Shown here one piece after another: positions 1,413-25,873 of a DNA stretch of 64,000 nucleotides. Origin of the DNA: Fusobacterium sp. (lineage in GTDB: Bacteria > Fusobacteriota > Fusobacteriia > Fusobacteriales > Fusobacteriaceae); NCBI RefSeq assembly GCF_030528405.1, contig NZ_JAUMYY010000003.1, positions 1 through 64,000 on the forward strand. The letters run 5' to 3'. The translations under genes and the position numbers were made by a program. Every line of letters begins with the position of its first letter. The stretch's first letter is position 1. Below the pieces are notes generated by a model, which did no database searches, was not told the origin of the DNA, and saw only the letters and a program-made list of their open reading frames with translations.

Positions 1413-1538
1413 ATGAAAGATAAATTTTTAGATGAATTAAGAAACTTTAAAATAGGGCAAATTAAAGAAGAATTAGGAATAGTTGATGAAGGAAATATTG
1501 TATCAGAAGAAGATTTAGAAGGTGATACAGATGAATAA
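1413..1538 (+). CDS. small acidic protein of unknown function
   Basis: This is a 41-residue ORF with ATG at 1413 preceded by TTGGAGGTAA at good spacing. It begins MKDKFLDELRNFKIGQIKEE and is rich in Asp and Glu. It overlaps the start of the ArdC-like gene by 8 nt (ATG 1531, stop TAA 1536-1538), which suggests translational coupling. A palindromic repeat lies just upstream, as for other transfer genes here. No family is recognised. The well-placed ribosome binding site and the coupling are the evidence for it being real. Confidence 0.6.
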   Translation: MKDKFLDELRNFKIGQIKEELGIVDEGNIVSEEDLEGDTDE

Positions 1539-3543
1539 TGCTTTTGACATAGTAATGAACGACAGGAAAAAAATAGTAGATAAATTAATTCAAAACATGG
1601 AAAGGGGAGATTTAATATTTTCCAAAAATTGGAATAGCAGTGCTTTATATCCACAGAACCCGGTATCAAATGTTAGATATTTAGGTGGAAATAGAGTTAG
1701 ATTAATGCTAAAGGCTATAGAAAAAGAATATAAAGATCCTCGTTGGTTGACTTTTAAACAAGCAGCAGAAAATGGCTGGAATGTGAGAAAAGGAGAAAAA
1801 GGAACTTTATGTGAAAAATGGATATTTACAAAAAAAGAAAAAGAGATAAATAAAGATGGTAAAGAAGTAGAAAAAGAAGTAAAATTAGATAAACCACTTG
1901 TAAATTATTTTTATGTTTTCAATGCAGAACAAATAGAAAATATTCCTAAATTAGAAATAAACAACTTTACTAAAGATGAGTCAAATGAAATTGTACAAGA
2001 TTTTATAAATAGCTCTGAATGTAGTATAAAAGAAGTTGCACAGGATAAAGCCTATTATAATCCTGGAAAAGATGAAATAGTTTTACCTCTTAGAGAAAGC
2101 TTTAATAGTAGTCAAGATTTTTTAAAAACTACATTTCATGAAATGGTACATTCTACAGGACATAAAGATAGATTAAATAGAGATTTAACTGGATTAACTG
2201 GAGGATTTGGAAGTGAAGAATATGCAAAAGAAGAATTAGTAGCAGAACTAGGTTCTGTATTTCTTCAATCAAAATTAGGAATAAAACTAGAAGGAGAGCA
2301 TTTTGATAACCATAGTGCATATTTAAAATCCTGGATAAACATTTTAAAAAATGATTCTAATGAATTATTTAGAGCTGCTGCACAAGCAGAAAAAGCAAGT
2401 GAAAGATTATATGAAAGATATATTGAACACGAGCAAGAACAACTAAGAGAATTTTCACAAAAAGAATTTAGACCACATCCGTTAGACTCTTTCTCAGTAG
2501 AATTTCATTATGCAGAAACATCAAAAGATACAAAAAATCTTAACTTTGAAGAAGAAAAAAAATACAGGGGAGTTAAAGCATATGAGTTTATAGAAAAAGT
2601 TATTAAATTTGATAAAGAATATAGCTTAAAAAGAGAAATTGAAGAAATGGGATATTATAAATCTTGGATGACTATTAATTTAAAGGGATACTCTACAGAA
2701 AAAATAAGAATAGATTTGGGAGACAAAGAGTTTGGAGGCTTTGAAAAAGTATCGGATGCATTAGAATACAGATTAAAAAGTTTTCCAAAAAATCTGTTAG
2801 AGCATAAAAATTCTTATGCTGAAAATTTTGGAACGACTCCTGAAGCAATTGAAAAGGATGCAAAGGAAATATTAGAAAAAATTGAAAAAAGTATAGGACA
2901 TTTTAAAGAGAAGGAACAGTCGTATTTAACTGAAAGAGAAAAAATAAAGGAAAATGAGATATCTGAAAGTATAAAAAAAGAAATAAAAGCAAATCCTAAT
3001 ATAACTAAAACAGAAATATCTAAAAAAATAGGAATTGATGAAAAGCAACTAAATGAAAAACTTGGGAAATTAATAAAAAATAAAGAACTTTTTTATTCAA
3101 GTGATAAAGGAGAAATTAAGTATTATACAGAGAAATCAAATTATATAAAAGATATAGAAGAAAAAGAAAAACAAAAAGAGATAGTAAAAGAAAAAAGGAA
3201 AAAAGAACTGGAAGCTTTAGTAAAGGAAACAGTTAAAAAAGATATTCCAAAGGATCAATATAATTGTTTAACAGGGAATCAAATAATAGTAGAAAATCAT
3301 TTGTCTGGTGAAAAAAGATGGATAGCAGCAAGTGATGTGAAAGATAATAATATATCTATAAAAGAGAATCAAACACCTACTCTAACAATAGCTTTACATA
3401 AAGAAGAAGAAAAATTATATGCAAAGCCAATAGAATACTATAATGTGTCTCAATTAAATATAACAAAAGAAATTGAGCAAAAATTTGTTCCAATGAAAGA
3501 AAGAACTGTAGAAAAAGCAAAAGATAAAGGAATTGAAAGATAA
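1531..3543 (+). CDS. ArdC-like antirestriction / zincin polyvalent protein
   Basis: About 670 residues. The N-terminal 130 match the ArdC ssDNA-binding domain (DPRWLTFKQA, RKGEKGT, YFYVFNAEQIENIP). A zincin metallopeptidase domain follows, with HEMVH at about residues 203-207 and a downstream EELVAELG. The middle region resembles accessory domains of polyvalent mobile-element proteins but I cannot name it. A winged-helix-like segment (NPNITKTEISKKIG) precedes a C-terminal domain from 3259 that is shared with the ToxN-like protein at 10226. ATG 1531 is preferred over an upstream GTG (1522) because AAGGTG sits 6 nt before it. Members of this family protect incoming DNA in the recipient. Confidence 0.8.
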   Translation: MNNAFDIVMNDRKKIVDKLIQNMERGDLIFSKNWNSSALYPQNPVSNVRYLGGNRVRLMLKAIEKEYKDPRWLTFKQAAENGWNVRKGEKGTLCEKWIFTKKEKEINKDGKEVEKEVKLDKPLVNYFYVFNAEQIENIPKLEINNFTKDESNEIVQDFINSSECSIKEVAQDKAYYNPGKDEIVLPLRESFNSSQDFLKTTFHEMVHSTGHKDRLNRDLTGLTGGFGSEEYAKEELVAELGSVFLQSKLGIKLEGEHFDNHSAYLKSWINILKNDSNELFRAAAQAEKASERLYERYIEHEQEQLREFSQKEFRPHPLDSFSVEFHYAETSKDTKNLNFEEEKKYRGVKAYEFIEKVIKFDKEYSLKREIEEMGYYKSWMTINLKGYSTEKIRIDLGDKEFGGFEKVSDALEYRLKSFPKNLLEHKNSYAENFGTTPEAIEKDAKEILEKIEKSIGHFKEKEQSYLTEREKIKENEISESIKKEIKANPNITKTEISKKIGIDEKQLNEKLGKLIKNKELFYSSDKGEIKYYTEKSNYIKDIEEKEKQKEIVKEKRKKELEALVKETVKKDIPKDQYNCLTGNQIIVENHLSGEKRWIAASDVKDNNISIKENQTPTLTIALHKEEEKLYAKPIEYYNVSQLNITKEIEQKFVPMKERTVEKAKDKGIER

Positions 3544-3571
3544 AACTATGAGACACATGTGTCCCATAATT
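3544..3571. repeat. intercistronic palindrome, copy 2
   Basis: A 14-bp half-site on each side of GACACATGTGTC (3552-3563), with 12 of 14 positions paired. It lies directly before the GGAGG of trbJ; its centre is 27 nt before the ATG. Confidence 0.85.
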
Positions 3572-3583
3572 AAAGGAGGGAAA

Positions 3584-4375: not shown

Positions 4376-4678
4376 ATGAAAAAAATGTTATTAGGTTTAT
4401 TAATATGTTTATTTTTAGTTAGTTGTGGAAAGAAAGAAGTTGAATATCCTATTTATACTAAAGCTGAAAAAGAGGCTATTTATAAGGAAGCTAAAGATAA
4501 GGATAATAAGGAAAAACTAAAAGAGATAGAAGATTTGATGAATAAATTAGAAATTTTAGGAAAAAATGGAGATAAAGTCGCAGAAGGAGAGTATTTGGAT
4601 TGGGAAGAGACACAATTATTTTACAGAGCACCTAAACAAAAAGATCCAGGAGCAAATCTTTTAGATAGGAAGTGGTAG
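4376..4678 (+). CDS. small lipoprotein in the TrbK position (candidate entry exclusion)
   Basis: 100 residues. A type II signal peptide ends in the lipobox LVSC with lipidated Cys17. A Lys/Glu-rich helix follows and the C-terminal tail KDPGANLLDRKW is the same as in TrbJ. In IncP plasmids the lipoprotein TrbK, between trbJ and trbL, blocks uptake of a second copy. Position and lipobox support the same role, but sequence similarity to TrbK is not evident to me. It starts 12 nt after the trbJ stop with GGAGG spacing and ends 1 nt before trbL. Confidence 0.65.
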   Translation: MKKMLLGLLICLFLVSCGKKEVEYPIYTKAEKEAIYKEAKDKDNKEKLKEIEDLMNKLEILGKNGDKVAEGEYLDWEETQLFYRAPKQKDPGANLLDRKW

Positions 4679-4679
4679 A

Positions 4680-6026
4680 ATGCAAACTTTTACGGAGATA
4701 CTGAATATCTTTATAAATGTTTTAGAAAAAATTCCACAAAACTTAAAAATTATGGCATATTCATTATTATTTTTTCTTAGTACTATAGAAATAGCTTTAA
4801 CTATCTATAATAATATTGACAATGAAAGTTTTAGCTATATTAAATGGGGAAAAATTAAAATATTGAAGATTGGTTTTATTATGTTTGCTATTAACAGATA
4901 CGAATGGATTTTAAATGGAGTAAAAAGTTTTTTTATGGAAATAGGTTCAAAGGGGCTGGGACTTTCATTAAAGGGTAGTAATTATTTTAATAAACCATCT
5001 GAAATTTATGATTTAGGAATAGATATAGCTAATCATGTACGAAAAGCAGTTAGTTGGAAACCTAGTACTTATGTATTTTTGATATTAGCTATATTGATAG
5101 CTATTGGCTTTTTTCTTATAGCAATACAAGTCATAATATGCTGGGTTGAATTTTACTTTTTAACAGGTATTTCTATTGTTTTTCTTCCATTTGGAGCTTT
5201 AGATATAACAGTAGAATATTATAAAAATGTTTTTAAAACTATTATGGGTGCCTCAATAAAACTATGTGTATTTAATATATGGGTTCTTATATGTGAAAAG
5301 ATATTAAAAAGTTTAGCTGATGTTCCTAAAGAAAAAATAACTTTTGATTATTCTTTAATAGTAGCTGGAACAGCCTATATTCTTGTAACTGTTCTACTAT
5401 CAATGCCATCTATGACAACAAGCTTACTAACTGGAACACCAACATTAAATGCTGGGGCAGCTATGTCAGCAGCGACAGGAGCAGTAGCTGGACTAGGAGC
5501 AGGAATGGCACATATGTACAGAGGGACAAAAGAAACAGTAAAAGGAGCATATGAAGGAGCAAAAACAGGAGGTAGTTTAGGAAAAACTGTAGGAGGAATT
5601 GTAGGTGGACCAGTAGGAGGAGCTGTTATTGGAACTTTAGGAGGAGCTATAGGAGGAGCAGTTAAGGGAACGTATGCAGCTGGAAGATATGCCATATTCA
5701 AAGAAAAGGGTAAAGATAAAACTAATGAAGAAAAACCAAGCAGTAATAGAAAATCAAGTAATCAATCGTTAGCTGAAAAATTGGCTGGTAATACAGATTC
5801 TCCTGACAATAACTCTTCTAGCATAAATGAAAATAAAAGTACTAATTCAAAAACTGATACCATAAATACAGGAAACAATAGACAATCCCAACAAACTAAC
5901 AATTCTAGCAATACAATAGGTTCAACTGAAAATAATATAAATACATCATCGACAAACACAGAAAGTGCAACTAAACCTACTATGAATGGAGGGGAAATTC
6001 CTAATTGGGCGAAAGACGATTATTGA
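4680..6026 (+). CDS. trbL: TrbL/VirB6 inner-membrane channel protein
   Basis: 448 residues. Several hydrophobic segments fill residues 20-255, with the cluster at about 130-185 strongest. A Gly/Ala-rich stretch (about 255-340, repeated GGxxGG) follows, and the last 90 residues are a Ser/Asn/Thr low-complexity tail. This is the usual TrbL layout: polytopic membrane core, glycine-rich segment, disordered tail. It follows the lipoprotein stop by one base, with AGGAAGTGG inside the upstream gene acting as ribosome binding site. The C-terminus is read just into palindrome copy 3. Confidence 0.8.
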   Translation: MQTFTEILNIFINVLEKIPQNLKIMAYSLLFFLSTIEIALTIYNNIDNESFSYIKWGKIKILKIGFIMFAINRYEWILNGVKSFFMEIGSKGLGLSLKGSNYFNKPSEIYDLGIDIANHVRKAVSWKPSTYVFLILAILIAIGFFLIAIQVIICWVEFYFLTGISIVFLPFGALDITVEYYKNVFKTIMGASIKLCVFNIWVLICEKILKSLADVPKEKITFDYSLIVAGTAYILVTVLLSMPSMTTSLLTGTPTLNAGAAMSAATGAVAGLGAGMAHMYRGTKETVKGAYEGAKTGGSLGKTVGGIVGGPVGGAVIGTLGGAIGGAVKGTYAAGRYAIFKEKGKDKTNEEKPSSNRKSSNQSLAEKLAGNTDSPDNNSSSINENKSTNSKTDTINTGNNRQSQQTNNSSNTIGSTENNINTSSTNTESATKPTMNGGEIPNWAKDDY

Positions 6027-10084: not shown

Positions 10085-10205
10085 ACAGAATATAATTACA
10101 TAAGAAGATAAAGAAAAAAGCGGTGTACTCTACCATTAAGTGAGAACTAAAAAAGTTTCCCAAAGTATTGGGATAGGAAAGGTTGGGAGAGATCTCGACT
10201 TTTTT
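10085..10205 (+). ncRNA. toxI: type III antitoxin RNA (ToxI-like), single repeat plus terminator
   Basis: The stretch between promoter and toxin contains GGTGTACTCTACC followed by ATTAAGTGAGAACTA. From memory this matches the pseudoknot repeat of Pectobacterium ToxI (GGTGxxxxxCTACCxTTAAGTG). Only one such unit is visible, whereas most ToxI loci carry several tandem copies. A hairpin (TCCCAA/TTGGGA, 10158-10173) and a terminator follow. In type III systems the RNA is cut by the toxin and wraps it in an inactive complex. The terminator also limits toxin transcription. Confidence 0.7.
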
Positions 10206-10207
10206 TA
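10182..10207 (+). terminator. ToxI-toxN attenuating terminator
   Basis: GTTGGGA, a GAGA tetraloop and TCTCGAC (10182-10199) form a 7-bp stem with two wobbles, followed by seven T. It lies before the toxin ribosome binding site, as in other type III loci. Confidence 0.7.
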
Positions 10208-10225
10208 TTAAAGGAGAATATACTA

Positions 10226-11107
10226 ATGAATAAAAGATTTAAGTTTTATCATATTAATGAAGAATATATTAGGTATTTAAGGATGTTTGACAGTAATGTA
10301 ACTGATAACTCAAAAGAAAATAAGAAAGAAAAAAGACCTTATATTGGTATTCTTATAGAAGTAGAGAATTTTAAATACCTAGCTCCTCTTTCTTCGAAAA
10401 AATCAAAGTTTTATTCAATGAAGAATAATATTGACTTTATAAAAATAAATAATGGAAAGGAAGGAGCAATAAATTTAAATAACATGCTTCCTGTAAATAG
10501 TATTTTTGTTTCAGAATATAATCCCATATTAGAGAAAGATTTAGATTATAAAAAGCTGGTAGAGAAGCAGTTATCTTGGTGTAATGAAGAAGTAAATAAA
10601 TTAAAGATTTTAAAACATGCAGGAAAGCTTTACAGATTATTGCAAACGAATAGATTACCTAAAAATATAGAGAAAAGATGTTGTAATTTTAAATTATTAG
10701 AGGAAAAAAGCTTAGAATATTTAGAAATTCAAAAACTTGAAAAGAAATTTGAAGTAAACAAAGAAAATTATGAACTTATTATAAATAATCTTAAAGAAAT
10801 AAGAGAAAGTGTTAAAGATAAGAACTATAATTGTTTGACTGGGAATCAAATTCTAGTTAAATCTCATTCTGAAGATCGGAAATGGATTCCAGCAAGTATG
10901 GTTAAAGAACATAAAATAAGAATAAAAGCTAATGAGAGAGCTATAAAAGGAATTTTAACAAATATAGAAGAAGGAAAATTTTATGTAAAACCTATTGAAT
11001 ATTACAATGTATCACAACTTTATATAACAAAAGAACTAGAGCAAAAATTTGTTCCAATGAAAGAAAAGACAATAAAAATAGAAAAAGATAAAGGAATTGA
11101 AAGATAA
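10226..11107 (+). CDS. toxN: type III toxin, ToxN/AbiQ-family endoribonuclease with extra C-terminal domain
   Basis: 293 residues; ToxN is normally about 170. Residues 1-170 follow the ToxN pattern: KFYHINEEYIRYLRMFD, YIGILIEVENFKYLAPLSSKK, INLNNMLPV, KKLVEKQLSW, CNFKLLEEKSLEYLE. Residues 201-293 (from 10826) are an added domain sharing YNCLTGNQI, KPIEYYNVSQL, EQKFVPMKE and DKGIER with the ArdC-like protein's end. ToxN cuts RNA when its antitoxin RNA runs out, giving plasmid maintenance and phage abortive infection. The RNA antitoxin lies directly upstream. AAAGGAG precedes the ATG. Confidence 0.85.
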   Translation: MNKRFKFYHINEEYIRYLRMFDSNVTDNSKENKKEKRPYIGILIEVENFKYLAPLSSKKSKFYSMKNNIDFIKINNGKEGAINLNNMLPVNSIFVSEYNPILEKDLDYKKLVEKQLSWCNEEVNKLKILKHAGKLYRLLQTNRLPKNIEKRCCNFKLLEEKSLEYLEIQKLEKKFEVNKENYELIINNLKEIRESVKDKNYNCLTGNQILVKSHSEDRKWIPASMVKEHKIRIKANERAIKGILTNIEEGKFYVKPIEYYNVSQLYITKELEQKFVPMKEKTIKIEKDKGIER

Positions 11108-12122: not shown

Positions 12123-14534
12123 ATAGCAGAATATAGATTTCATTATAAAAAAGGTAAATTAGGTTATGCAAGAGAACATGCTGCATACATATTAAGAGAA
12201 GAAAATTACATATCAAAAAAAGAAGAATTAATTTATTCAGAATCAGGGAATATGAATTTTTTTGATGGTACAAGTGCTGTTAAATTTTGGGAATATGCAG
12301 ATACTTATGAGAGAGCAAATTCAGTCGTATACAGGGAGATGGAATTAAATATACCAAATGAATTTAACCATGAACAAGCCAAGACATTGATATCTAATTT
12401 TGTAAAAAAAGAACTAGGAGAAGGATTTCCATATACTTATGCAATACATGAATCTTTTAATAAAGAAGGTGAAAAAAATTTACATTGTCATTTAATGTTT
12501 TCTGAACGTGAAAATGATGGAATAAATAGAAAGTTAGACCAATTTTTTAAAAGAGCAAATTCTGAAAATCCTGCACTTGGTGGGGCTATGAAAAATAGAC
12601 AATGGCAAGAAAAATCAAAGCTTTTAGAATTAAGAAAAAGCTGGGAAATTGAATCTAATAATTTATTAGAAAAGTATGGATTTGAAGCAAGAGTAGATTG
12701 TAGATCATTAAGAGAAATAAGAAGAGAATTATTAGAAAGAGAAATGTTTGATCAAGCTGAGAAATATAATAGGGTTCCTTTAAATATTTCAGGAAAAATA
12801 TTGTATAAAGTAGATAGAAATATTACTTTGACTGATAAAGAGCAAGAGAAATATGATAATTTTTTAGAAGCTAAAAGAATACGGCTAGAAAAAATAAAAA
12901 AAGTTGAAAAGAAAGATTTAAAAGCAGAAATTCAAAAATTAGAAAAACAAAATAGTAATGAAAGGGCTTTAAATATAATAAGTAAAGGAAAATATTTTAA
13001 GTTAAAAAAAGAACTTGCTGCCGTTTCTAAAAAAATTAAAAATTACCCTGAAAATTCTATATTATCTATATTAAATGGAAGAAAAAAATCATTAAACGAT
13101 GAAATTGAAAAAATAAAAAATAGTGTTGAAAACTCAATTAAATATAAAAATATAGTTGAACAATTAGAAAGAAATAGAATAAGAGATTTAGCTAAAGCTA
13201 AAGAACTCTTTATGAGTAAATTTAATGAGAATTATGAATCTAAAGATAACAATAAAGAAAATGAAAAAACAGTAAAGAAATACAAAAAGAAAGATAAATT
13301 ACGATTAAAGATAGAAGAACAAATTTTGTTAAATGAAAATAGTGAAGAAAAAGCAATAAATGTTATAACAGACTACAAGTATAATGCAGAACTTGTGGAT
13401 AATTTTAATTTACAAGATCATAGTGAAAAATTAAAAGAGAAATATAATGAAGCAGCTCTATATAATCAAGAAGAATTAAAAAATATAAAAGTAGAAATTC
13501 TGGAAAATGATTATAAATTAGGAAATAGCAAGAAAAATATATTAGAGTTACTTGAAAGTATTGACGAAGAAAAACTTAAAGAATTATCAGAAAAGATACA
13601 GAAAAAAGATAAATTTAGATTATATTTCGTAAGAGAAGAAATAAAAATGAAAGGTAATCTTATTTCAGATTTAGACTATGAAAAAGAAAGACTAGCTTTA
13701 CTTTATAAGCATTCTAACTTAGAAAAATTATATAATAAAGAGAATGTAAAAGATATGAAAGATAATAAAAAGATGTATAATTTATCTTCAGAAATTGTTG
13801 CAATAGAAAACTTGCTAAACACTGAATACAAAGAAAGTAAAAGTGTTGAAAAATTAGTAAAAGAAAATATAGAAAAGATAAATAATAAAATAGAAAAAAA
13901 TAATAACAGAATAAAAGTTGCTCAAGAAAATATTAACAAAATAGAAATTATAAATAAAGTATACAATAATAAGCATAACCTTAGAGGAATAGAAATCATA
14001 GTAATAGGAAGATTATCTAAGAATGAATATTGGAGATTAGGCAAAGAACAAGAAAAGTTAAAAAAAGAAATAGAACAAAAAGAGAAAGTACTAAAAAGAA
14101 TGAGCTTAATTGCTTTTGGAAAAAATGTTTTAAAGAAAAGTCTTGAATTAAGTAGAGAAGAATTGAAAGCATCAATAAAAAAAGAAAATATTTTAGTTGA
14201 AAAATATACAAAGCATTTGAAGTTTAAAAGTGAAGTGAAAACATTAGAGGAGTATTATGAGAGGGTTATAAAAGATAATAGAAGAGTAATATTTCAATTA
14301 AAACAAGAAAACAAGATTAGTTATCAGTTAAAATCTAATATTCAAGATAATAAAAAAGAAGTAAGGGCATTTACTAGGTTACCTCAAAGAAGGTTAACAA
14401 ATAAAAATACAGCAAGAACATTAAGTAGCTTAAAGAATAATATTCATAATATTTTAGCAGCAGATTCAAGTGAAATTAGGTCTAATTTAGATATAAATTT
14501 AAAAAGAGAGAAGGAGTACGAATGGGAAATGTAG
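12123..14534 (+). CDS. mobA: MOBQ (MobA/MobL-family) relaxase
   Basis: About 803 residues. The frame is open from 12099 and encodes an N-terminus homologous to RSF1010 MobA: AREHAAYILREENY with the predicted catalytic Tyr at codon 12186-12188, then ESGNM, YADTYERAN and the metal-binding HCHLMFSER (His121, His123). The first in-frame ATG (12252) would lose the catalytic Tyr. No standard start is in frame further upstream. ATG 12116, well placed after AAGGGGG, is one base out of frame, so one extra C or a non-standard ATA start is implied. Residues beyond 200 are long Lys/Glu coiled coils. It nicks oriT and pilots the strand. Confidence 0.85.
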   Translation: MAEYRFHYKKGKLGYAREHAAYILREENYISKKEELIYSESGNMNFFDGTSAVKFWEYADTYERANSVVYREMELNIPNEFNHEQAKTLISNFVKKELGEGFPYTYAIHESFNKEGEKNLHCHLMFSERENDGINRKLDQFFKRANSENPALGGAMKNRQWQEKSKLLELRKSWEIESNNLLEKYGFEARVDCRSLREIRRELLEREMFDQAEKYNRVPLNISGKILYKVDRNITLTDKEQEKYDNFLEAKRIRLEKIKKVEKKDLKAEIQKLEKQNSNERALNIISKGKYFKLKKELAAVSKKIKNYPENSILSILNGRKKSLNDEIEKIKNSVENSIKYKNIVEQLERNRIRDLAKAKELFMSKFNENYESKDNNKENEKTVKKYKKKDKLRLKIEEQILLNENSEEKAINVITDYKYNAELVDNFNLQDHSEKLKEKYNEAALYNQEELKNIKVEILENDYKLGNSKKNILELLESIDEEKLKELSEKIQKKDKFRLYFVREEIKMKGNLISDLDYEKERLALLYKHSNLEKLYNKENVKDMKDNKKMYNLSSEIVAIENLLNTEYKESKSVEKLVKENIEKINNKIEKNNNRIKVAQENINKIEIINKVYNNKHNLRGIEIIVIGRLSKNEYWRLGKEQEKLKKEIEQKEKVLKRMSLIAFGKNVLKKSLELSREELKASIKKENILVEKYTKHLKFKSEVKTLEEYYERVIKDNRRVIFQLKQENKISYQLKSNIQDNKKEVRAFTRLPQRRLTNKNTARTLSSLKNNIHNILAADSSEIRSNLDINLKREKEYEWEM

Positions 14535-15439: not shown

Positions 15440-15766
15440 ATGAAAAAAAAATTTAGATTTTTGAAAATTAACAAGAAAATGATAATGGTATTTTTACTTT
15501 TTGCCTTATCAAGTGTAGCAATGGCAACAACTTCGGATGCACCTTGGGATAAGATGTTAACCAAATTTCTGGGCTATCTTACAGGTTCTACTGCAAGGCT
15601 TTTATCAATTTTAGCTCTTGCATTTGCTGGCTATAAAATTATTTGGGGAAATGCTATGGAAGGTGGAAGTTGGCTTATGAAGGTCGTTATTGGGATGTCA
15701 ATAATTTTTGCCGCTGCTAGCTGGGGTCCACTTTTTTTCGGATACTCAGGTTCTATTTTGATGTAA
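15440..15766 (+). CDS. trbC: TrbC pilin precursor (VirB2-like)
   Basis: 108 residues. The signal peptide ends near AMA (about residue 30); two hydrophobic segments follow, separated by a short loop, and the protein ends GYSGSILM. Size and layout match TrbC/VirB2 pilin. It opens the second transfer block (TAAGGGAGGG ribosome binding site) and would be the substrate of the TraF peptidase at 6068. A terminator-like hairpin lies just upstream. Confidence 0.8.
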   Translation: MKKKFRFLKINKKMIMVFLLFALSSVAMATTSDAPWDKMLTKFLGYLTGSTARLLSILALAFAGYKIIWGNAMEGGSWLMKVVIGMSIIFAAASWGPLFFGYSGSILM

Positions 15767-15787: not shown

Positions 15788-16477
15788 ATGAAAAAAATTT
15801 TTAGTTATAAATCTCCAAAAAGTAATTTTGGGAAAATAGGTGAGTTAGAGATATTTAATCCTGCATATGATAGATATTTAAATTTAGCTAAAAGTATTAG
15901 AAATTGGCAATTAGCTTTTCTTGTCATGTCATGTCTTGCTGGAATTTCTTTAATGTCATATATTTATTTAGCAAATAAGACTAAATTAGTCCCATACATT
16001 ATAGAGATTGACAAAGAAAATGGTTCAATTTACTTTAAAGGGAGAATGGATCAAGTTAAATATGATATTAATGACTCCATAATTTTTTCTATGTTAAATG
16101 ATCATGTTATGAATACTCGTTCAATATCACTTGATCAAGTATTTACTTATAAAAAATTTAAGCGTCAATATGCATTTTTAACAGCTGAAATGAAAAATAA
16201 AATGAGTGAAGAAATACAAAATTATGATTTGGAGAAAAAGTATAAAAATAAAGAAGCTATAGATGTAACTATAACATCAATGCTTAAAGAGAATGATTCA
16301 TATAGAATAAATTGGACAGAAAGAAAATATATTTCTGGAAATAATGTTGAAACAAAAAAAATGACAGGAATCTTTTCTGTGGAGCAAGTAAATAATTTAT
16401 CTGAAGAAGATATAATAATTAACCCTTTGCAAATTTTAATTAAAGATTTCAGTATAACAGCTGATAAATCTTATTAG
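15788..16477 (+). CDS. trbF: TrbF (VirB8-like)
   Basis: 229 residues. A cytoplasmic N-terminus ending in FNPAYDRYLNLAKSIRNWQ precedes one membrane segment (about 38-58) and a periplasmic NTF2-like domain with KLVPYIIEID. This is the VirB8 layout, and the protein helps assemble the inner-membrane complex. It starts 21 nt after trbC and is followed by trbG 12 nt later. Confidence 0.85.
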   Translation: MKKIFSYKSPKSNFGKIGELEIFNPAYDRYLNLAKSIRNWQLAFLVMSCLAGISLMSYIYLANKTKLVPYIIEIDKENGSIYFKGRMDQVKYDINDSIIFSMLNDHVMNTRSISLDQVFTYKKFKRQYAFLTAEMKNKMSEEIQNYDLEKKYKNKEAIDVTITSMLKENDSYRINWTERKYISGNNVETKKMTGIFSVEQVNNLSEEDIIINPLQILIKDFSITADKSY

Positions 16478-16489
16478 GAGGACTTAAAA

Positions 16490-17320
16490 ATGAAAAAATA
16501 TATATTTTGTTTATGTTTACTACTCTCAAGTATTTCTTTTTCTGCTGTAGACAGGGCAAGTGAATTTGATGAATATTCAACACGTCAACCACAAATAGAA
16601 AAAGGTTATAAAAAAAGTAAAACTGATGTAGTGTCTACCTATTTTTATAATGAAAAAGATTCTTATAGAATAATTACAAGAGCAGGATACATTTCTACTG
16701 TTATTTTAAATAAAGATGAAGACATTATACATGCTGAAATAGGGGATGCTACAAGATGGAGTATACAAACATATTACACAGGAAGTGAGAAAGGAATGTC
16801 CCCAGCAATATCTATAAAACCTTTTATTCCAGAACTTCGTACAAACTTAATCATTTCAACAACAAAAAGAATATATAATTTGGTATTAGAAGCAAGCTTA
16901 AATAGCTATGCACCAATTACTACATTTGAATACCCTAAAGAGATAGAGTTACTTAATATACAAAAAAGAGAAAGAGAAAAGGATGAGATAAAAATAGACC
17001 TTTCTAATATGAATTTTAACTATGAATGGAAAAAAAATAAGTATTCTTGGTCGCCAGTTGCTGTATATGATGATGGAAAAAAGACTGTAATAACTATGCC
17101 AGAAAATATAGATACTCAACAATTACCAGCTTTATTTATAAAGGATGAGCAAACAGGAGATGATGCAATTGTAAGAAATAGATATAATCCACGACTTAAT
17201 GCTTATGTGATAGATCGATTAATAGAACAAGCTGTCCTTAAAATTGGAGATAGAGAAATTATAATAAAAAGAAAAGGAAGTTTTATTAAGAAAAAAGAAA
17301 ATTTCTCTGTTTCATTGTAG
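16490..17320 (+). CDS. trbG: TrbG (VirB9-like)
   Basis: 276 residues. Signal peptide about 1-19 (cleavage near FSA). The middle contains ITRAGYISTVILNKDEDI and GDATRW, typical of the VirB9 N-terminal domain. The C-terminal half (YEWKKNKYSWSPVAVYDDGK, TVITMP, LPALFI) is the VirB9 C-terminal beta domain, which joins VirB10 and the outer membrane in the core complex. AGGAGG precedes the ATG. Confidence 0.85.
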   Translation: MKKYIFCLCLLLSSISFSAVDRASEFDEYSTRQPQIEKGYKKSKTDVVSTYFYNEKDSYRIITRAGYISTVILNKDEDIIHAEIGDATRWSIQTYYTGSEKGMSPAISIKPFIPELRTNLIISTTKRIYNLVLEASLNSYAPITTFEYPKEIELLNIQKREREKDEIKIDLSNMNFNYEWKKNKYSWSPVAVYDDGKKTVITMPENIDTQQLPALFIKDEQTGDDAIVRNRYNPRLNAYVIDRLIEQAVLKIGDREIIIKRKGSFIKKKENFSVSL

Positions 17321-17329
17321 GAGGTGTCT

Positions 17330-18496
17330 ATGAATAATCAAGATCCTCACATTTATGAGAATGCAAATACAGAGCAAAAAAACACAGTATCAGGGGAGCA
17401 TATAAGAGGAATATTTTTAAATAGAAAATTCTTTAAAATAATATTTATTATAATAATTTTTATATTGGTTGTAATTATCTTTAGAAAAGACTTATTTGGA
17501 GATAGAGAAGTAGAGCAAGAGCAAGTAAAAAAATCAGAAACATTAAGTAATAAAAAAACAGATAATGAGGTAAATTATGAAAATATTAAAGACTTAGAGA
17601 ATATTAAATATGGAGATGAAAATATTGCAGATGAAGATTACGATAATCCTGATTATAATGTTCCAGCACAAGAAGAATTGAGCCAAGAAGAACAAGATAG
17701 GCTGAACAGAATAAAGCAATTAGAAGACGAGGTAGTTACAGCTTTAAGAAGCCCTACAACAATTACAATTGCTTCTCGTCCTAAAGTAGAAGAATCATCA
17801 ACTGGAAGCTTTTTAATGCAGCAAAATAAACCTGTAACTGATTATGATGGGAATAGGCAAGAGAGTAAGAAGAATTTTTTAATGAATGAACCTGCTCAAA
17901 GATTCTACCAAGAAAATTTTCTGGTGGCACAATTATCAGAGTTTGAGTTAAAAGCTGGAGATTTTATACCAGCCACTATGATAACAGGAATAAATTCTGA
18001 TTTACCTTCAAAAGCTGTAGTAGCACAAGTTTCAGAAAATGTATTCGATAGTATTTCTGGTCGAAATTTACTCATACCACAGGGTACAAAAATAATAGGA
18101 ACTTATGATTCAAGTATCACTTTTGGGCAAGAAAGATTAATAATTATATGGCAACGATTAATTTTCCCTAATGGAAAAACAATAGGTTTGGATAATATGC
18201 AGGGAGTAGACTTATCAGGACAAGCTGGAATAGATGGATTAGTTGATAATCATTTCTCTACATTATTAAAAGGGGTATTACTTTCATCTTTGCTAGGAAG
18301 TGCAGCATCTATTACAGTTGACAAAAGGGATTGGCGAGGAGCTGCTGCAGATGGGGCAGGACAACAAATAGTAGCAATAGGAGAAACTTTTGCAGAGAAA
18401 GCATTATCAAGGCAGCCTACAATTATAATAGAGAAAGGAACTAGATTTAATATAACAGTTCATTCTGATTTAATACTAGAGCCATACAATAACTAG
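17330..18496 (+). CDS. trbI: TrbI (VirB10-like)
   Basis: 388 residues from ATG 17330, five bases after AGGAGG; the in-frame GTG at 17324 overlaps that site and is unlikely. One membrane segment (about 31-50) is followed by an acidic linker and the VirB10/TrbI beta-barrel domain: LKAGDFIPATMITGINSDLP, NLLIPQGTKIIGTYDSS, RGAAADGAG and RFNITVHSDL. It spans both membranes and links energy use inside to the outer-membrane pore. Palindrome copy 5 overlaps its end. Confidence 0.88.
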   Translation: MNNQDPHIYENANTEQKNTVSGEHIRGIFLNRKFFKIIFIIIIFILVVIIFRKDLFGDREVEQEQVKKSETLSNKKTDNEVNYENIKDLENIKYGDENIADEDYDNPDYNVPAQEELSQEEQDRLNRIKQLEDEVVTALRSPTTITIASRPKVEESSTGSFLMQQNKPVTDYDGNRQESKKNFLMNEPAQRFYQENFLVAQLSEFELKAGDFIPATMITGINSDLPSKAVVAQVSENVFDSISGRNLLIPQGTKIIGTYDSSITFGQERLIIIWQRLIFPNGKTIGLDNMQGVDLSGQAGIDGLVDNHFSTLLKGVLLSSLLGSAASITVDKRDWRGAAADGAGQQIVAIGETFAEKALSRQPTIIIEKGTRFNITVHSDLILEPYNN

Positions 18497-18518
18497 GGGA
18501 CACATGTGTCTCTTAGTT
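18491..18518. repeat. intercistronic palindrome, copy 5
   Basis: 28-bp inverted repeat in which the two non-Watson-Crick positions are G-T, so as RNA it would be fully paired. It overlaps the trbI stop; its centre is 30 nt before the traG start. Confidence 0.85.
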
Positions 18519-18533
18519 ATGAGGAGACTAAGC

Positions 18534-20546
18534 ATGAAGAAAGATTCTATAAAAAAGAAAATATCAAAAATACTATTTTTCATCATAGTTCCAGTCGTAT
18601 TATCCGTTGGAACACAGAGTTTTGCGAAAAGGGTAGCTTATCATAAAGCATTAGGGAAGCCAATGTTTCACTTAAATAATATTCCTATATATTCTCCTAT
18701 AAGAATATTAGAGTGGAATAAGATAAAAAGAGCTCCAAAAGCCATTGATTATGCACATAGAAATATGGGTGGGGCTTTGATTTTAGGAATTTTTATTTTA
18801 GCCTTGTTGAATTATAAAAAAAAGAAAATTACGGTTCATGGAAGTGCTGAATGGGCAACGAAAGAAGATATAGACAAAATGGATTTTTTCCCATATAAAA
18901 CTGGAAGTTATAAAAAAGAATATAAATACTCAGGCATTGCTAAAATGTTAAGGGATAAAATATATGATGTTAAGCCATATATAAAAATAGAATTTCCTGA
19001 AAATAAGTTAGAAATGTCTAAAATGGTAATAAAATTATCAATATTAGAAAAAGAATATAAAAATAATGAGTATAAAAAACATGGAGTTTATTTAGGAAGA
19101 GATAAATGGGGTAGAGATTTGATAGATTCAAGCCCAGGTCATGTAATGATGATAGCAAGGACTGGAGGAGGAAAAGGAGTTTCGGTAGTTATCCCAACCC
19201 TACTTACTTGGAAAGGCTCAACATTAGTAAATGATATTAAAGGTGACAACTGGTTATATACAGCGGCATATAGAAGGAGCTTAGGACATAAAGTATTTAG
19301 ATTTCATGCAACAGCAGATGGACAAATTGATAAAAAAGGAAACATTATAAAAACTGGAGAAAATCTATCTTGTCATTACAATCCTATGGTTGAAATAAGA
19401 AAAGGAACAGTTTATGAATATCAAGAAGCTTACATGATAGCAGAAACTATAGTTTCTCCTGATAAATTAAAAGACAAATTTTTCGGACCAAATGGGGTTA
19501 ATTTTTTAGCAGCTGTAATTTTACATGTCTTGTATATGGTAAAAAATAGAACTGCAAATATCACTGATGTTTATAACTTTTTCACAAGCCCACAGTTTTC
19601 TGAAGAAGAAAAATTAAAGAAAATGATTTCAGAAGAACATAATTCAGAAGAAAGAGAAAGTCTTTTTTATGAAATATATAATGATGTTATTGTCTTAAAA
19701 AATGGGATGGAAAGTCCTAGAACACATCCTAAGGTATCAAGAGTAGCAGCAGACATGTTAGGAAAAGCAGAAAAAGAAAGGTCTGGAATAATGTCAACGG
19801 CTAAAACAGAATTATTTCCATTTTCTGTGCCTACAATAGCAAGAAATACAGCTTATTCAGATTTCAGAATAAAAGATTTAATGAATTATGAAACTCCTGT
19901 AGATTTATATTTTGTAACACCTCCTAATTCAGTTGATATAACCTCTGTTTTATTAAAGTTATTTTTAAATCAAATAATTTTTATTCTTACTGAAGAAATA
20001 AAACTGAACAAAAAAGGAGAGAATGTAGCTTATTTACATAGACTACTAATACTGATGGATGAATTAACTGCAATAGGGAGAGTAGATTTATTTCATAAAG
20101 CAATATCATATATAAGAGGTTATGGAATGAAAGCACTTCTAATTATTCAAGATATGAAGCAATTAAAAGAAGTTTATGGAGAAAATAATAGTTTCCTAGG
20201 TAACATGTCTACTACTATTTACTATACTACAAATGATGTAGATACAGCTCAATATATAGAAACAAGATTAGGAAATAAAACTGAAAAAATAATTACAAAA
20301 TCATATGGGGCTGGATTATTTAAAAAAGTAAATTATTCTGAAAGTTATGTAAAAAGACCTCTTATGACTAAAGAAGAAATACATAACATGGGGGAAGATG
20401 ATTCAGTGATTTTATCAGCAGGCAAACCTCCAATTAATGGAATATTAAATAGATGGTATAACGATGATGAGTTTAAAAATAGAATTGCAAGAGTTCCAGC
20501 ACTCGAAAAAAATTCACAGTCAGACATAATAAAAGAATACAGATAA
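18534..20546 (+). CDS. traG: TraG/VirD4 coupling protein
   Basis: 670 residues from ATG 18534, preceded by GAGGAG; the 18504 ATG lies in the palindrome. Two N-terminal membrane segments (about 14-32 and 80-98) precede the ATPase domain with Walker A ARTGGGKG (208-215), TLVNDIKGDNW, and Walker B LILMDELTAIG (Asp about 509). This hexameric ATPase hands the relaxase-DNA complex to the secretion channel. It is followed by palindrome copy 6. Confidence 0.92.
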   Translation: MKKDSIKKKISKILFFIIVPVVLSVGTQSFAKRVAYHKALGKPMFHLNNIPIYSPIRILEWNKIKRAPKAIDYAHRNMGGALILGIFILALLNYKKKKITVHGSAEWATKEDIDKMDFFPYKTGSYKKEYKYSGIAKMLRDKIYDVKPYIKIEFPENKLEMSKMVIKLSILEKEYKNNEYKKHGVYLGRDKWGRDLIDSSPGHVMMIARTGGGKGVSVVIPTLLTWKGSTLVNDIKGDNWLYTAAYRRSLGHKVFRFHATADGQIDKKGNIIKTGENLSCHYNPMVEIRKGTVYEYQEAYMIAETIVSPDKLKDKFFGPNGVNFLAAVILHVLYMVKNRTANITDVYNFFTSPQFSEEEKLKKMISEEHNSEERESLFYEIYNDVIVLKNGMESPRTHPKVSRVAADMLGKAEKERSGIMSTAKTELFPFSVPTIARNTAYSDFRIKDLMNYETPVDLYFVTPPNSVDITSVLLKLFLNQIIFILTEEIKLNKKGENVAYLHRLLILMDELTAIGRVDLFHKAISYIRGYGMKALLIIQDMKQLKEVYGENNSFLGNMSTTIYYTTNDVDTAQYIETRLGNKTEKIITKSYGAGLFKKVNYSESYVKRPLMTKEEIHNMGEDDSVILSAGKPPINGILNRWYNDDEFKNRIARVPALEKNSQSDIIKEYR

Positions 20547-20591: not shown

Positions 20592-20909
20592 ATGATAGAA
20601 GAAAAAAATGAAGGAGTAACTGTTGAAGATAATTTAGAAACTCCTAAAAATAAAAAGAAAACAATAGATGAAAAAATTGAAGAATTAAAAGAAAAATTAA
20701 AATTAGCAGAATTAGAAAAAAAGAAATCGATAGAAAAAAAAGGAAAGAATTTATGGTTAAAAATAAAGTCTTTGTTTTTGACAGATGAAAATATAATAGA
20801 TGAAATTCTTAATGATCCTGAAAAAATAGAGAATTTAAAACAGGCAATACTTAATTTTTTAGAAGAAGAGGAAAAGAAAAAAACAAGGGAGAAGTCAAAT
20901 GAAAAGTAA
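20592..20909 (+). CDS. coiled-coil protein between traG and trbB, unknown function
   Basis: 105 residues from ATG 20592, which follows AAGGAGG. It is highly charged, with a predicted coiled coil (about 22-55, heptad-like KIEELKEKLKLAELEKKK) and an acidic C-terminus. No signal or membrane segment. It overlaps trbB by 11 nt, so the two are probably translated together. No counterpart at this position in the IncP trb operon comes to mind; a link to the TrbB ATPase is only positional inference. Confidence 0.55.
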   Translation: MIEEKNEGVTVEDNLETPKNKKKTIDEKIEELKEKLKLAELEKKKSIEKKGKNLWLKIKSLFLTDENIIDEILNDPEKIENLKQAILNFLEEEEKKKTREKSNEK

Positions 20910-21828
20910 TTTATTAGATCTTCTTGAAATAAGCTTTGGTCCACAAATAATGGAATATATGAATGATGAAGATGTAGTTGAAATTATGAAGAATGATGAT
21001 GGTAAAGTCTTTATAGACACATTATCACAAGGGATGATATTTAAAGGGTATATGGAAGCAGATAAGGCTTTAAATATAATTTATTTAGTTGCTAACCATT
21101 CTGGGCAAGAGGCTACAGTAGAAAATCCTATTATAAGTGCAGAATTGCCAGGAAGTGGATTTAGATTTGAAGGAAATATTCCTCCGCTCACAACAACAGC
21201 GGCATTCAATATAAGAAAATATTCTATTTTAGAATTAACATTAGATGATTATGTTAGGGACAAGATTATGTCAGAAACACAAGCCAAATGTATAAAAGAA
21301 GCTGTAAAGGAAAGGAAAAATATTCTTGTAGTTGGAGGAACGGGAAGTGGAAAGACAACATTATGTAATGCAATATTAAGTGAAATGTCTCAATATAACC
21401 AAAGAATTATAATTATTCAAGATACAAATGAGCTTAAATGTAGTTGTGAAAATAGATTATTTATGAAAACAAGTGAATATGTATCTATGAGAAAGTCATT
21501 AGTATCTACTCTTAGAAGAACGCCAACAAGAATAGTTATAGGAGAAGTTAGAGATGGAGCAGCACTAAATGTATTAATAGCCTGGAATACAGGACATCCT
21601 GGAGGTTTATGTACTTTACATGCAGATAATGCTATAAAGGGAATAAGGCAATTTGAAAGTTATATAATGGAAGTCTCAACATCACCACAAAGAGAAAAAA
21701 TAGGAGATACGATAAATTTAATAATTGATTTACAAAGAGAGGGCTTAAGAAGAAAAGTAAAAGGAATAATAGAACTTAAAGGCTACGATACTAAAAAAGA
21801 AGAATATATATTAAAATATTTAACTTAA
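20899..21828 (+). CDS. trbB: TrbB (VirB11-like) secretion ATPase
   Basis: 309 residues. Walker A GGTGSGKTT begins at about 146. The Asp box (IIIQDTNELK), Walker B-like RIVIGEVRDG and the His box (GHPGGLCTLHADNA) follow in the usual order. VirB11 proteins form hexamers at the inner face of the channel. GGGAGAAG precedes the ATG inside the upstream gene. Followed by trbD 13 nt downstream. Confidence 0.9.
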   Translation: MKSNLLDLLEISFGPQIMEYMNDEDVVEIMKNDDGKVFIDTLSQGMIFKGYMEADKALNIIYLVANHSGQEATVENPIISAELPGSGFRFEGNIPPLTTTAAFNIRKYSILELTLDDYVRDKIMSETQAKCIKEAVKERKNILVVGGTGSGKTTLCNAILSEMSQYNQRIIIIQDTNELKCSCENRLFMKTSEYVSMRKSLVSTLRRTPTRIVIGEVRDGAALNVLIAWNTGHPGGLCTLHADNAIKGIRQFESYIMEVSTSPQREKIGDTINLIIDLQREGLRRKVKGIIELKGYDTKKEEYILKYLT

Positions 21829-22103: not shown

Positions 22104-22125
22104 TAAGAGATAAGTATGTCTCTTA
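22104..22125. repeat. intercistronic palindrome, copy 8 (degenerate)
   Basis: Perfect outer arms TAAGAGA (22104-22110) and TCTCTTA (22119-22125) around GATAAGTATGTC, a decayed form of the GACACATGTGTC core. It abuts the AGGAGG of trbE; its centre is 23 nt before the start. Confidence 0.6.
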
Positions 22126-22136
22126 GGAGGAATAAA

Positions 22137-24893
22137 ATGTTTAGAGAATTTAAAAAGAGAAATTTACCTAAAAAATTCAAAAATAATGATGATTCATTGA
22201 CAGATTTATTGCCATGGGCGTATATCTATGAAAACAATGAATCTAACTTATTTATTGGAGAAGGTGAAGATTTAAAAACAATAACTTTCCCTATAGTAAT
22301 GACAAAAGACGGAAGTTTTCAAACTACTTTTAAATTTAGGGGTAGAGATTTAGATAGCTGTACTCCAGATGAATTATATCTAGTAAATGAAAGATGTAAT
22401 AATGTACTAAGACAATTAGATGCAACATGGACATTGCACTTGAATGCTATTAGAAGAAAAAGTCATAGCTATATTCAAAAAGAGAATATAAAAGCAATTC
22501 CTTTAAAGATAATTGAATTAGAAAGAAATGATTTTTTCACTTCTGGAAGCCACTACGAAAGTGATTATTACTTAACATTTACATACAATACTCCTGAAGA
22601 TAAATTAAAAAAGGCTAGAAATATATTTTTTAAGAATACAGATGTGACAATAATCGAAAATCATTTTAAAGATAATCTTAAATATTATAATGATGAAATA
22701 TACAGGTTATTTTTCTTATTAAGTGAAGTATTATCAGAGTGCAAGGTACTAAATATAGATGAAACTTTAACATATTACCATAATTTAATTTCAGATATAA
22801 AAATAGAGTTTTTAAAAGTACCAAAAGCATTTATAAAAGAAAGGTCTATTGTAAATGATGGAAAGTTGGTGAAAGAAAGTAAAATTATAGCAGTAGGAAC
22901 AGAATTACCAGAAATGTATAAAAAAGATAAAGATAATATAAGGGAAGAAATACTCCCAATTTTAATAGATAATTACATTTCTGATACTCCATTAATTGGA
23001 GGTTTAACTCCACAACTAGGGAAGGAGTATATAAAGGCTGTTTCATTATTATCTTTTCCAGGAAATTCAATACCAGGAATCTTAGATCAATTAAATAGAT
23101 TGAATTTTGAATATACTTGGAGTACAAGATATATGATGTTAGATAAATTAAATGCTCTAAAAACTATAAAATTTTATACAAAAAGATGGGGAAATGCGAG
23201 GACATCATTTACAAATTTAATTAAAGAAGGTTTACTTAGAAAGAAAACAGAGGAGAATGAAAGTGCAGGATATAAAGAGGAACAAGTAAAGCAAGAAGGA
23301 ACATTAATAGAGCAAGAAGAGACAGCTTTAGGTTATTATACGATTACAATTATCTTGAAAGATCAAGATAAAAGTATTGTTGAAAAGAATGCTTTAACTA
23401 TAAGAGCAAAGTTAAATTCTTTAGGATTTACAGCTCAAATAGAAGATTTCAATATTTTAGATTGTTTTTTCGGTTCGTTACCAGGAAATATAGTTATGAA
23501 TGAACGAAAACCACCACAAAATTCAAGAGTTTATAGTCATCTAATTCCACTAAATGCGGTATGGGCTGGAGATGAGAAGAATGAATTTTTGAAAAAACCA
23601 CCACTATTATACTGTCAAACAATAGGACATACGCCATTTAGACTAAATTTACATTATAAAGATGTGGCACACACTCTAATAATAGGTCCTACTGGATCTG
23701 GAAAATCTGTATTACTTGGAATGCTTCAAGCGGAATACTTGGCTTATGGAAATACAAAAGTTATAGCATTTGATAAAGGAGCTTCTACAAAAGTTTTAAA
23801 TAAGGCTTGTGATGGAGTTTTCTATGATTTAGGAGAAGATAATATAAGATTTCAACCACTAAGAAGTATTGGAGATAATTCAAAATTTCTTATTGAAAAA
23901 TTTAAAAAAGAAATAGAGATTGAAGGAAAAATAATAACAAAAATTGAAGAAGAAAAGATTTCAGAAATTGAAAGAAATGAAAAAAGTAGAGCAAATAAAG
24001 AAAAAGAGTGGTGTCAGGAGTGGATAGAAGACATATTAGAAAGTAATTCAGTTCAATTAACACCAGAAATAAAAAATTATGTATGGAATGCTTTAACACA
24101 ATTAACTACTTTACCAGAACATAAGAGAACTATTTCATCGTTTGTAGATTTGGTTGGTGGACAATCAAAAGTTATAAAAGAGGCTTTGACAGCATATTAT
24201 GGGAATGGAGCTTATGCAAAATATTTTGATGGGAATAGTGACTTTTTGAAAGAGTCAAATTACATAGTGTTTGAAATGGAAAAAATATTAGAGACGAAAA
24301 ATGCAGTAATGCCAACTTTAAATTATTTATTTCATGTAATAGAAACTAAAATGGTAGATAAAAAAACACCTACACTTTTAACATTAGATGAATGTTGGGT
24401 ATTTTTAGATAATCCTAAATTTGAAAACAAAATAAGAGAATGGTTAAAGGTAATGAGAAAAAATAATGTTGGAGTTGTATTTGCAACTCAGTCTCTATCT
24501 GATGTAGCAGAGAGCAAAATAAAAAGTGCAATCTTAGATGCATGCTATACAAGAATTTACTTACCAAATAGCAATGCAAAATCAGAAATTCAGCAATCGT
24601 ATTATAAGATGTTTGATCTTAATGATACAGAAATAGATATAATATATAATTCAGTGCCTAAAAGACAATATTATTTTAAAAATCCTAAAGGATCAAGATT
24701 ATTTGAATTGGCACTATCAAAGCTAGAACTTTCTTATGTTGCCACATCTGGAGGTAAGGATTTAGAAAAATGTAAAGAGTTAGGTCATCTAAGCCAAGAA
24801 GAATTTAATGTAAAGTGGTTAGAATATAAAGGATTTGAAGGAGAAATTGTTGTTGGGAAAATAAAAGAATTAATAGAAAAAAACAGTTTTTAA
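22137..24893 (+). CDS. trbE: TrbE (VirB4-like) secretion ATPase
   Basis: 918 residues from ATG 22137, preceded by AGGAGG; the frame's earlier ATG (22116) overlaps the degenerate palindrome. The N-terminal half is the VirB4 family domain. The ATPase domain has Walker A GPTGSGKS at about 517, VIAFDKGAS, and Walker B LLTLDECWVFL, then VVFATQSLSD. An inserted Lys/Glu segment (about 600-640) lies between the Walker motifs. VirB4 powers pilus and channel assembly. Followed by palindrome copy 7 and the outer-membrane gene. Confidence 0.92.
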   Translation: MFREFKKRNLPKKFKNNDDSLTDLLPWAYIYENNESNLFIGEGEDLKTITFPIVMTKDGSFQTTFKFRGRDLDSCTPDELYLVNERCNNVLRQLDATWTLHLNAIRRKSHSYIQKENIKAIPLKIIELERNDFFTSGSHYESDYYLTFTYNTPEDKLKKARNIFFKNTDVTIIENHFKDNLKYYNDEIYRLFFLLSEVLSECKVLNIDETLTYYHNLISDIKIEFLKVPKAFIKERSIVNDGKLVKESKIIAVGTELPEMYKKDKDNIREEILPILIDNYISDTPLIGGLTPQLGKEYIKAVSLLSFPGNSIPGILDQLNRLNFEYTWSTRYMMLDKLNALKTIKFYTKRWGNARTSFTNLIKEGLLRKKTEENESAGYKEEQVKQEGTLIEQEETALGYYTITIILKDQDKSIVEKNALTIRAKLNSLGFTAQIEDFNILDCFFGSLPGNIVMNERKPPQNSRVYSHLIPLNAVWAGDEKNEFLKKPPLLYCQTIGHTPFRLNLHYKDVAHTLIIGPTGSGKSVLLGMLQAEYLAYGNTKVIAFDKGASTKVLNKACDGVFYDLGEDNIRFQPLRSIGDNSKFLIEKFKKEIEIEGKIITKIEEEKISEIERNEKSRANKEKEWCQEWIEDILESNSVQLTPEIKNYVWNALTQLTTLPEHKRTISSFVDLVGGQSKVIKEALTAYYGNGAYAKYFDGNSDFLKESNYIVFEMEKILETKNAVMPTLNYLFHVIETKMVDKKTPTLLTLDECWVFLDNPKFENKIREWLKVMRKNNVGVVFATQSLSDVAESKIKSAILDACYTRIYLPNSNAKSEIQQSYYKMFDLNDTEIDIIYNSVPKRQYYFKNPKGSRLFELALSKLELSYVATSGGKDLEKCKELGHLSQEEFNVKWLEYKGFEGEIVVGKIKELIEKNSF

Positions 24894-25753: not shown

Positions 25754-25873
25754 ATGGAAAGAAAATTAATAACATGTAATATAGAAAAATCTGAAGAAGA
25801 TATTGAATATTATAATTACTTAATTACATATTTAACGGAAATTTATTTAAAAGAGGTAGAGAATAATGAATAG
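25754..25873 (+). CDS. small protein coupled to the serine recombinase
   Basis: 39 residues, beginning MERKLITCNIEKSEEDIEYY, acidic. ATG 25754 has AAAGGAG at 25741-25747. Its end overlaps the recombinase start by 8 nt (ATG 25866, stop TAG 25871-25873), so the two are probably coupled. I recognise no family. A directionality or regulatory role next to the integrase is possible, but this is inference. Confidence 0.5.
   Translation: MERKLITCNIEKSEEDIEYYNYLITYLTEIYLKEVENNE

Follow-up and report, generated by a model that had tools for sequence, protein, structure and literature searches.

In a 64,000-nucleotide stretch of DNA from Fusobacterium sp. (NCBI RefSeq assembly GCF_030528405.1, contig NZ_JAUMYY010000003.1, positions 1 to 64,000; hereafter the window), an integrated conjugative element encodes a ToxN-like type III toxin that carries an additional C-terminal region (gene at 10226..11107, + strand; an uninterrupted open reading frame (ORF) of 293 aa). 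We propose, with a probability of roughly two in three, that this C-terminal region serves the conjugative element as a portable delivery module. The module would consist of a diverged domain of the ArdC-N type, i.e., a type associated with single-stranded DNA (ssDNA) binding, with a basic tail after it that terminates in Phi-E-R, and would mark both the ToxN and an ArdC-like protein as substrates of the VirD4/VirB type IV secretion system (T4SS) of the element. From these sequence features, we infer that the ToxN, a toxin-antitoxin (TA) toxin, has been co-opted as an interbacterial effector of conjugation, in which a new C-terminal module has come to be combined with a type III toxin.

The fusion is evident from the layout of the protein, which comprises a ToxN/AbiQ endoribonuclease domain (residues 6-165), a linker helix (~166-200) and a C-terminal domain (201-293). 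Residues 6-165 match the Pfam ToxN_toxin model (PF13958; E 3.1e-42; 144.9 bits against a cut-off of 25) along positions 2-159 of its 159, a full-length domain above the family cut-off that places the protein among the ToxN/AbiQ type III toxins. It is also recovered by the PADLOC AbiQ model (E 1.2e-32) and matches the ToxN structures in the PDB (7d8o, 4ato and 2xd0; E 4e-16 to 5e-15), with its PL-S-S-K-K lining up with the PLTS-PK/PLTS-RN of the solved structures. By family, it is predicted to act as a ribonuclease (RNase) neutralized by ToxI RNA. The protein resembles the ToxIN/AbiQ type III systems in its intact ToxN domain and upstream toxI-like repeat but differs from them in having ~130 additional residues at the C-terminus, namely the linker and the domain, and the unusual length remarked upon in the original prediction is thereby borne out. 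In 98 Fusobacteriota genomes, the other ToxN ORFs that were read directly are about 165-203 aa long and stop at the ToxN domain, for those not read directly the search table lists open frames no longer than 213 aa, and no C-terminal extension was found on any other ToxN.

The C-terminal region can be divided into an ArdC-N/Tc-38-like domain (about residues 201-273; 10826..11043, +), supported by its identity to the C-terminal end of the ArdC-like protein, the family alignment, the Tc-38 matches of relatives and hhalign, and a basic tail ...FVPMKEKTIKIEKDKGIER (11044..11104, +), the proposed T4SS signal, of a type common to ArdC proteins and relaxases. A search of the same 98 genomes with a profile of the domain returned four confident matches, two in the window and one in each of two further genomes (G002 and G018), and a search of PLSDB for plasmids added the Fusobacterium polymorphum plasmid pKKCOM1330A with three domain copies, bringing the family to seven members. 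Their N-terminal partners are ToxN (window and pKKCOM1330A), ArdC (window), CptN (pKKCOM1330A and G018), zeta/PezT (pKKCOM1330A) and PBECR4 (G002). Thus, the domain is found on five distinct N-terminal parts, four of them of toxin type, and is C-terminal in every case across at least four separate loci; the ToxN and CptN partners are both type III toxins. The CptN partners match the NCBIfam CptIN model NF047359 above its curated cut-off (E 7.5e-32 in pKKCOM1330A and 4.9e-33 in G018), the zeta/PezT of pKKCOM1330A matches Pfam Zeta_toxin (E 9.5e-47) and the G002 protein is a PBECR4 nuclease (E 8.2e-19). On pKKCOM1330A, a T4SS plasmid, the domain ends three different TA toxins (ToxN, CptN and zeta/PezT), and the CptN fusion of G018 lies on a 34-kb T4SS contig. 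The motif residues are invariant in all seven members of the family alignment.

Scans with the domain of genome-contig and viral-contig collections gave no match, none was found in phage records, the only plasmid record with the domain was pKKCOM1330A, and searches of PHROGs and the PDB sequences returned no convincing match. Weak profile matches in six genomes (G012, G013, G058, G062, G094 and G096) were judged to be chance; the four that were read as ORFs resemble, by eye, an isomerase-type metabolic enzyme (G094 and G096), a substrate-binding protein of the ABC type and a protein akin to mannosidases. Two variants of the family may be recorded alongside. In G018, a zeta toxin (L041:14992-15750, G018:C2) keeps the start of the domain and the tail KQKSRSIER, with the core gone, and its ends are near-identical to those of the domain of the adjacent CptN. 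The PBECR4 fusion of G002 is chromosomal (L004:814-1782; G002:C4 ~90320) and ends in TIKSSKK.

The second copy in the window ends the 673-aa ArdC-like protein (1522..3543, +; ArdcN PF08401, E 3.8e-27; MPTase-PolyVal PF18818, E 6e-39). Together with its tail it spans 3259..3540 (+), ends in KAKDKGIER, and itself matches Tc-38 (E 0.045). Residues 201-293 of ToxN (10826-11104) align with it over their full length at 63% identity (tblastn E 3.8e-34), and every one of the sequence blocks by which the original prediction had linked the two C-termini is present in both. No third copy was found in the window by tblastn, and no further convincing copy elsewhere in the genome. The two copies are 75% identical in nucleotide sequence, with a synonymous divergence (dS) of 0.67, a nonsynonymous divergence (dN) of 0.23 and hence a dN/dS of 0.35, and they use the same codon at 41 of 57 identical residues against 34.5 expected under independent codon usage. 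They look like old, constrained duplicates: the nucleotide identity, the dS and the near-independent codon sharing rule out the recent gene conversion that had earlier been entertained as a possible source of the shared block. That paralogous copies are common within an element (two in the window and three in pKKCOM1330A) might still suggest a recombination hitch-hiker, i.e., the duplicated end of a cassette, with no function of its own, that has passed between adjacent genes of the element. We regard this as very improbable, for it sits poorly with the dN/dS between the old copies, the motif residues that never vary across the seven members and the unfailingly C-terminal placement at separate loci.

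As to the origin of the domain, ArdC-N, Tc38 and the XPC/Rad4 BHD domains have been united in one superfamily (Iyer et al., 2017, PMC5512222). Pfam Tc-38 was the top match among 24,736 models for four of the seven members (E 7.8e-4, 0.0059, 0.0099 and 0.045), always aligned in the same register as ArdC-N's own match to Tc-38. A comparison by hhalign of the seven-member profile with 22 fusobacterial ArdC-N domains scored 27.4 (P 2.5e-4), a score reached by none of 200 column shuffles (maximum 21.0). This alignment pairs the N-TG, RW, V-K and P-YYNVS end of the domain in order with ArdC-N, whose core motifs N-TG, DPRW, KG-K and squiggle F-N-Q serve as the register; the P-YYNVS end is the counterpart of the squiggle motif, which reads VFNADQ in the R388 ArdC (PMC7213743). 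The kinship with ArdC-N, first guessed from the order of the blocks, stands at the profile level with both Tc-38 and hhalign, and falls below the curated Pfam cut-offs: the best Tc-38 matches reach 13.9-19.5 bits against the required 23.2, the ArdcN model gives no match, and, taken singly, three of the seven members do not outscore their own shuffles at the 1% level. These profile comparisons make descent from an ArdC-N-type domain likely, and we hold this with good confidence; ssDNA binding by the domain is plausible.

The tail, i.e., the last ~20 residues, is basic and ends in ...EKDKGIER in the ToxN of the window. Ends of the same type are seen in fusobacterial relaxases (VELER, AELER, EYER, EWER, EMER and NER) and in T4SS-linked ArdCs (DLER, GIER, NLER, DWER, GQER, DLEW and DLEL); a distant ArdC clade (L099-L105) is without the tail. 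The MobA/MobL relaxase of the window (12252..14534, +; PF03389, E 7.5e-19) ends in ...LKREKEYEWEM, and a tblastn search within the window did not find the domain itself on it, the tail type alone being common to the two. Defined as [ILVFWYMGNQ]E[RLWMIV] at the extreme C-terminus, the motif is present in 18 of the 29 relaxases and ArdCs versus 18 of the 327 remaining ORFs in these elements (Fisher p 2e-13, a value to be taken as descriptive), and in 1 of 90 chromosomal ORFs. Of those remaining ORFs, six end in ER: five encode cargo candidates, namely the ToxN of the window, two G018 toxins (CptN and zeta) and two proteins of MORN type, and the sixth is a fragment of a relaxase.

Since such motif counts span related families, a comparison of the tails of non-homologous proteins within elements was added as a second test. 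Tail scores of at least 40 were obtained for 0.24% of within-element pairs versus 0.009% of between-element pairs, a 28-fold difference, part of the within-element excess being pairs of VirB5 and a lipoprotein. On contig G047:C11, a zeta toxin and an ArdC with unrelated bodies have an element-specific tail in common (NPLLKTLKKQKELESKGQGR and NPLLKNLKNQKELKSKGQER), as do the zeta and ArdC of G018:C1. On G019:C73, a Fic protein, RadC, a MORN protein and the ArdC share the tail KK.I.RK.K.KEE.LEL, which makes its cargo proteins candidates for further T4SS substrates. The cargo run of that element (L177 2096-7608) comprises the Fic, RadC and MORN-repeat proteins and a beta-helix-like protein, with a tail matching the ArdC of the element. 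Because relaxases must pass through the T4SS, and the ArdC of pSa is reportedly transferred during conjugation (cited in PMC5512222), the economical reading of the tail would be that of a T4SS signal.

The original prediction had framed the C-terminal region as a possible ssDNA-binding module and missed its conjugative context. The toxin is encoded together with a conjugative T4SS and a relaxase, as in the case of the exported toxin VbhT considered below, and the same type of T4SS is present on pKKCOM1330A and the G018 contig; the unrelated toxins bearing the domain and the relaxase-like tail point to delivery through this machinery. A version of the earlier frame would see the ToxN as an ordinary plasmid-stability or abortive-infection toxin acting in its own cell, with the domain tethering it to ssDNA (the T-strand, replication forks or phage DNA) and no export. 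Domains of the ArdC-N superfamily do bind ssDNA, as in the R388 ArdC (PMC7213743), and the toxI/cptI antitoxins are encoded in cis, the usual arrangement of type III modules; both facts would suit such a tether. We nevertheless consider it unlikely, as it leaves unexplained the same domain on zeta and PBECR4 toxins, the relaxase-like tail, the zeta that has lost the domain core and retained the tail, and the T4SS-borne toxins that share tails with ArdCs in the absence of the domain.

A different kind of export is suggested by the presence of several toxins with a common C-terminal domain on one T4SS element, which is the layout of the X-T4SS with its XVIPCD effectors in Xanthomonas and Stenotrophomonas (PMC6759196, PMC8262851). 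By analogy, the module could be the signal of an anti-competitor weapon, with the T4SS injecting toxins that kill neighbouring cells independently of DNA transfer. The likeness is one of layout, i.e., many toxins with a single C-terminal T4SS-recognition domain, whereas the machine here is a conjugation system of mobile elements that includes a relaxase, the antitoxins are RNA repeats of TA modules rather than periplasmic immunity proteins, and no lytic enzymes were seen among the cargo. A weapon of this kind is accordingly quite improbable.

Delivery in the course of conjugation, which we prefer, also involves the antitoxin. Immediately upstream of toxN, a toxI-like region (10118..10210, +) has one well-conserved unit (GCGGTGTACTCTACCATTAAGTGAGAACTAAAAAAG), followed by a diverged stretch and a terminator-like T run. 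The unit, of ~36 bases (about 10118-10155), is near-identical to the 37-nt toxI repeats of the sister-plasmid toxN, with a local score of 53 against a maximum of 25 among 500 shuffles; an Rfam search with the region gave no match. The sister-plasmid toxN is preceded by three 37-nt repeats, and the window by the single well-conserved unit. RNA repeats likewise precede each of the three type III toxins that were checked on sister plasmids (3 x 37 nt for toxI; 3 x 46-47 nt for cptI), and an antitoxin RNA locus seems to be present at the toxN of the window as well. We envisage that the tail would be recognized by the VirD4 coupling protein (18504..20546, +; PF02534, E 5e-84), its predicted receptor, with the ArdC-N-like domain either holding the protein to ssDNA or aiding recognition. 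ToxN and the ArdC-like protein would then enter the recipient alongside the transferred single strand or attached to it. ToxI RNA from the upstream repeat would neutralize ToxN in the donor; in the recipient, ToxN would arrive without ToxI, since the RNA antitoxin would remain in the donor. There, it could cut transcripts of the recipient or of competitors and slow growth up to the point at which toxI is expressed from the newly arrived element. Addiction of the recipient to the element would thus begin at entry, and any cell destroying the DNA that it receives would be penalized.

Several points weigh against this proposal. The R388 ArdC acts when expressed in recipients and not in donors (PMC7213743). 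AlphaFold2 models of the domain (110 and 78 residues, from two-sequence alignments) are of low confidence (pLDDT 48 and 40), and Foldseek matches obtained with the better of these low-pLDDT models are meaningless. The tail motif is short and was drawn up after many ends had been inspected, relaxases and ArdCs are kin families, such that the p-value given above overstates independence, and several relaxases and ArdCs are without the motif. Finally, the PBECR4 copy of G002 has neither a nearby T4SS nor a GIER end, and its genome is devoid of a MobA/MobL relaxase; this copy is possibly a remnant of a lost element.

The closest known system is VbhT (FicT-BID) of the Bartonella schoenbuchensis plasmid pVbh, which is translocated by a conjugative T4SS (Harms et al., 2017, PMC5675462) and is the sole TA toxin with demonstrated export by a conjugation machine in the literature that we found. 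The same authors proposed that export of this type might make recipients dependent as soon as transfer takes place, named PezT with a BID-like end as a candidate and predicted more TA toxins with short basic C-terminal signals, while observing that the shortness of T4SS signals goes with difficulty in predicting them (PMC5675462). The fusobacterial toxins resemble VbhT in being TA toxins of conjugative elements with a C-terminal domain, and their routing through a conjugative T4SS, established for VbhT, is here predicted. They differ in belonging to another phylum, in being ToxN and CptN (type III RNases with an RNA antitoxin), PBECR4 and zeta, and in having an ArdC-N-like domain with a Phi-E-R tail as the signal module, in which we noticed no similarity to BID. 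The toxin domains of the sister proteins belong with the CptIN type III TA systems and the zeta/PezT toxins, to which the C-terminal module is an addition. The domain is similar at the profile level to the ArdC-N of ArdC and polyvalent proteins (PMC5512222), likewise of conjugative elements. In those proteins, it is often N-terminal, whereas here it is short, C-terminal and on stand-alone TA toxins; the text of Iyer et al. (2017, PMC5512222) does not mention ToxN.

We found no description of such a type III toxin fusion or export module in the open-access papers searched. Several unrelated fusobacterial toxins end in one module and tail, including RNases whose RNA antitoxin lacks an obvious route of travel, and with this set the idea of plasmid addiction delivered as a protein at mating is directly testable. 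We tentatively suggest, at somewhat less than even odds, that Fusobacteriota conjugative elements hold a dedicated export module by which TA toxins of types III and II become interbacterial effectors. If this were so, an RNA antitoxin left behind in the donor would mean that recipient addiction begins with the delivery of the protein, ahead of any gene expression from the element. As a T4SS signal that can be read from sequence, the tail would help to find cargo in Fusobacteriota, and the idea of ArdC-N as a 'header' would be extended to a C-terminal tag on toxins.

The remaining T4SS genes of the window, all on the + strand, are virB6/trbL (4680..6026; PF04610, E 6.4e-16), the virB2/trbC pilin gene (15440..15766; PF04956, E 3.4e-18), virB8 (15788..16477; PF04335, E 8e-22), virB9 (16490..17320; PF03524, E 1.4e-44), virB10 (17324..18496; PF03743, E 9e-54), and the genes for the VirB11 (20899..21828; PF00437, E 3e-28) and VirB4 ATPases (22116..24893; PF03135, E 1.6e-14; PF19044, E 1.2e-16). 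A large serine recombinase (25866..27356, +; PF00239, E 1.3e-28; PF07508, E 8.9e-21) is in the right part of the integrated element and is followed by chromosomal ribosomal-protein genes; the window begins at a contig end, with the left end of the element lying outside the view. Directly behind toxN is a 200-residue tyrosine recombinase (11164-11766, - strand), and similar small recombinases (with ends ..KYIGIEEEDINRLYE..) are found in sister elements (L005:18050-18667, L171 and L187).

A last observation concerns the VirB5/lipoprotein pairs. The secreted protein in the VirB5/TrbJ position and the adjacent small lipoprotein in the VirB7/TrbK/Eex position have dissimilar bodies and common C-terminal 12-18 residues. 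The pairs lie at 3533-4363 and 4376-4678 in the window, and at L041:2423-3181/3199-3513, L178:13777-14508/13418-13834, L186:706-1464/1513-1875 and L187:19083-19847/18726-19055. The C-terminus of TrbK is essential for exclusion in pKPC_UVA01 (PMC8923210), and the shared end could be an entry-exclusion specificity tag, with the lipoprotein mimicking the end of VirB5. This end differs in every element, the version in the window being KDPGANLLDRKW.
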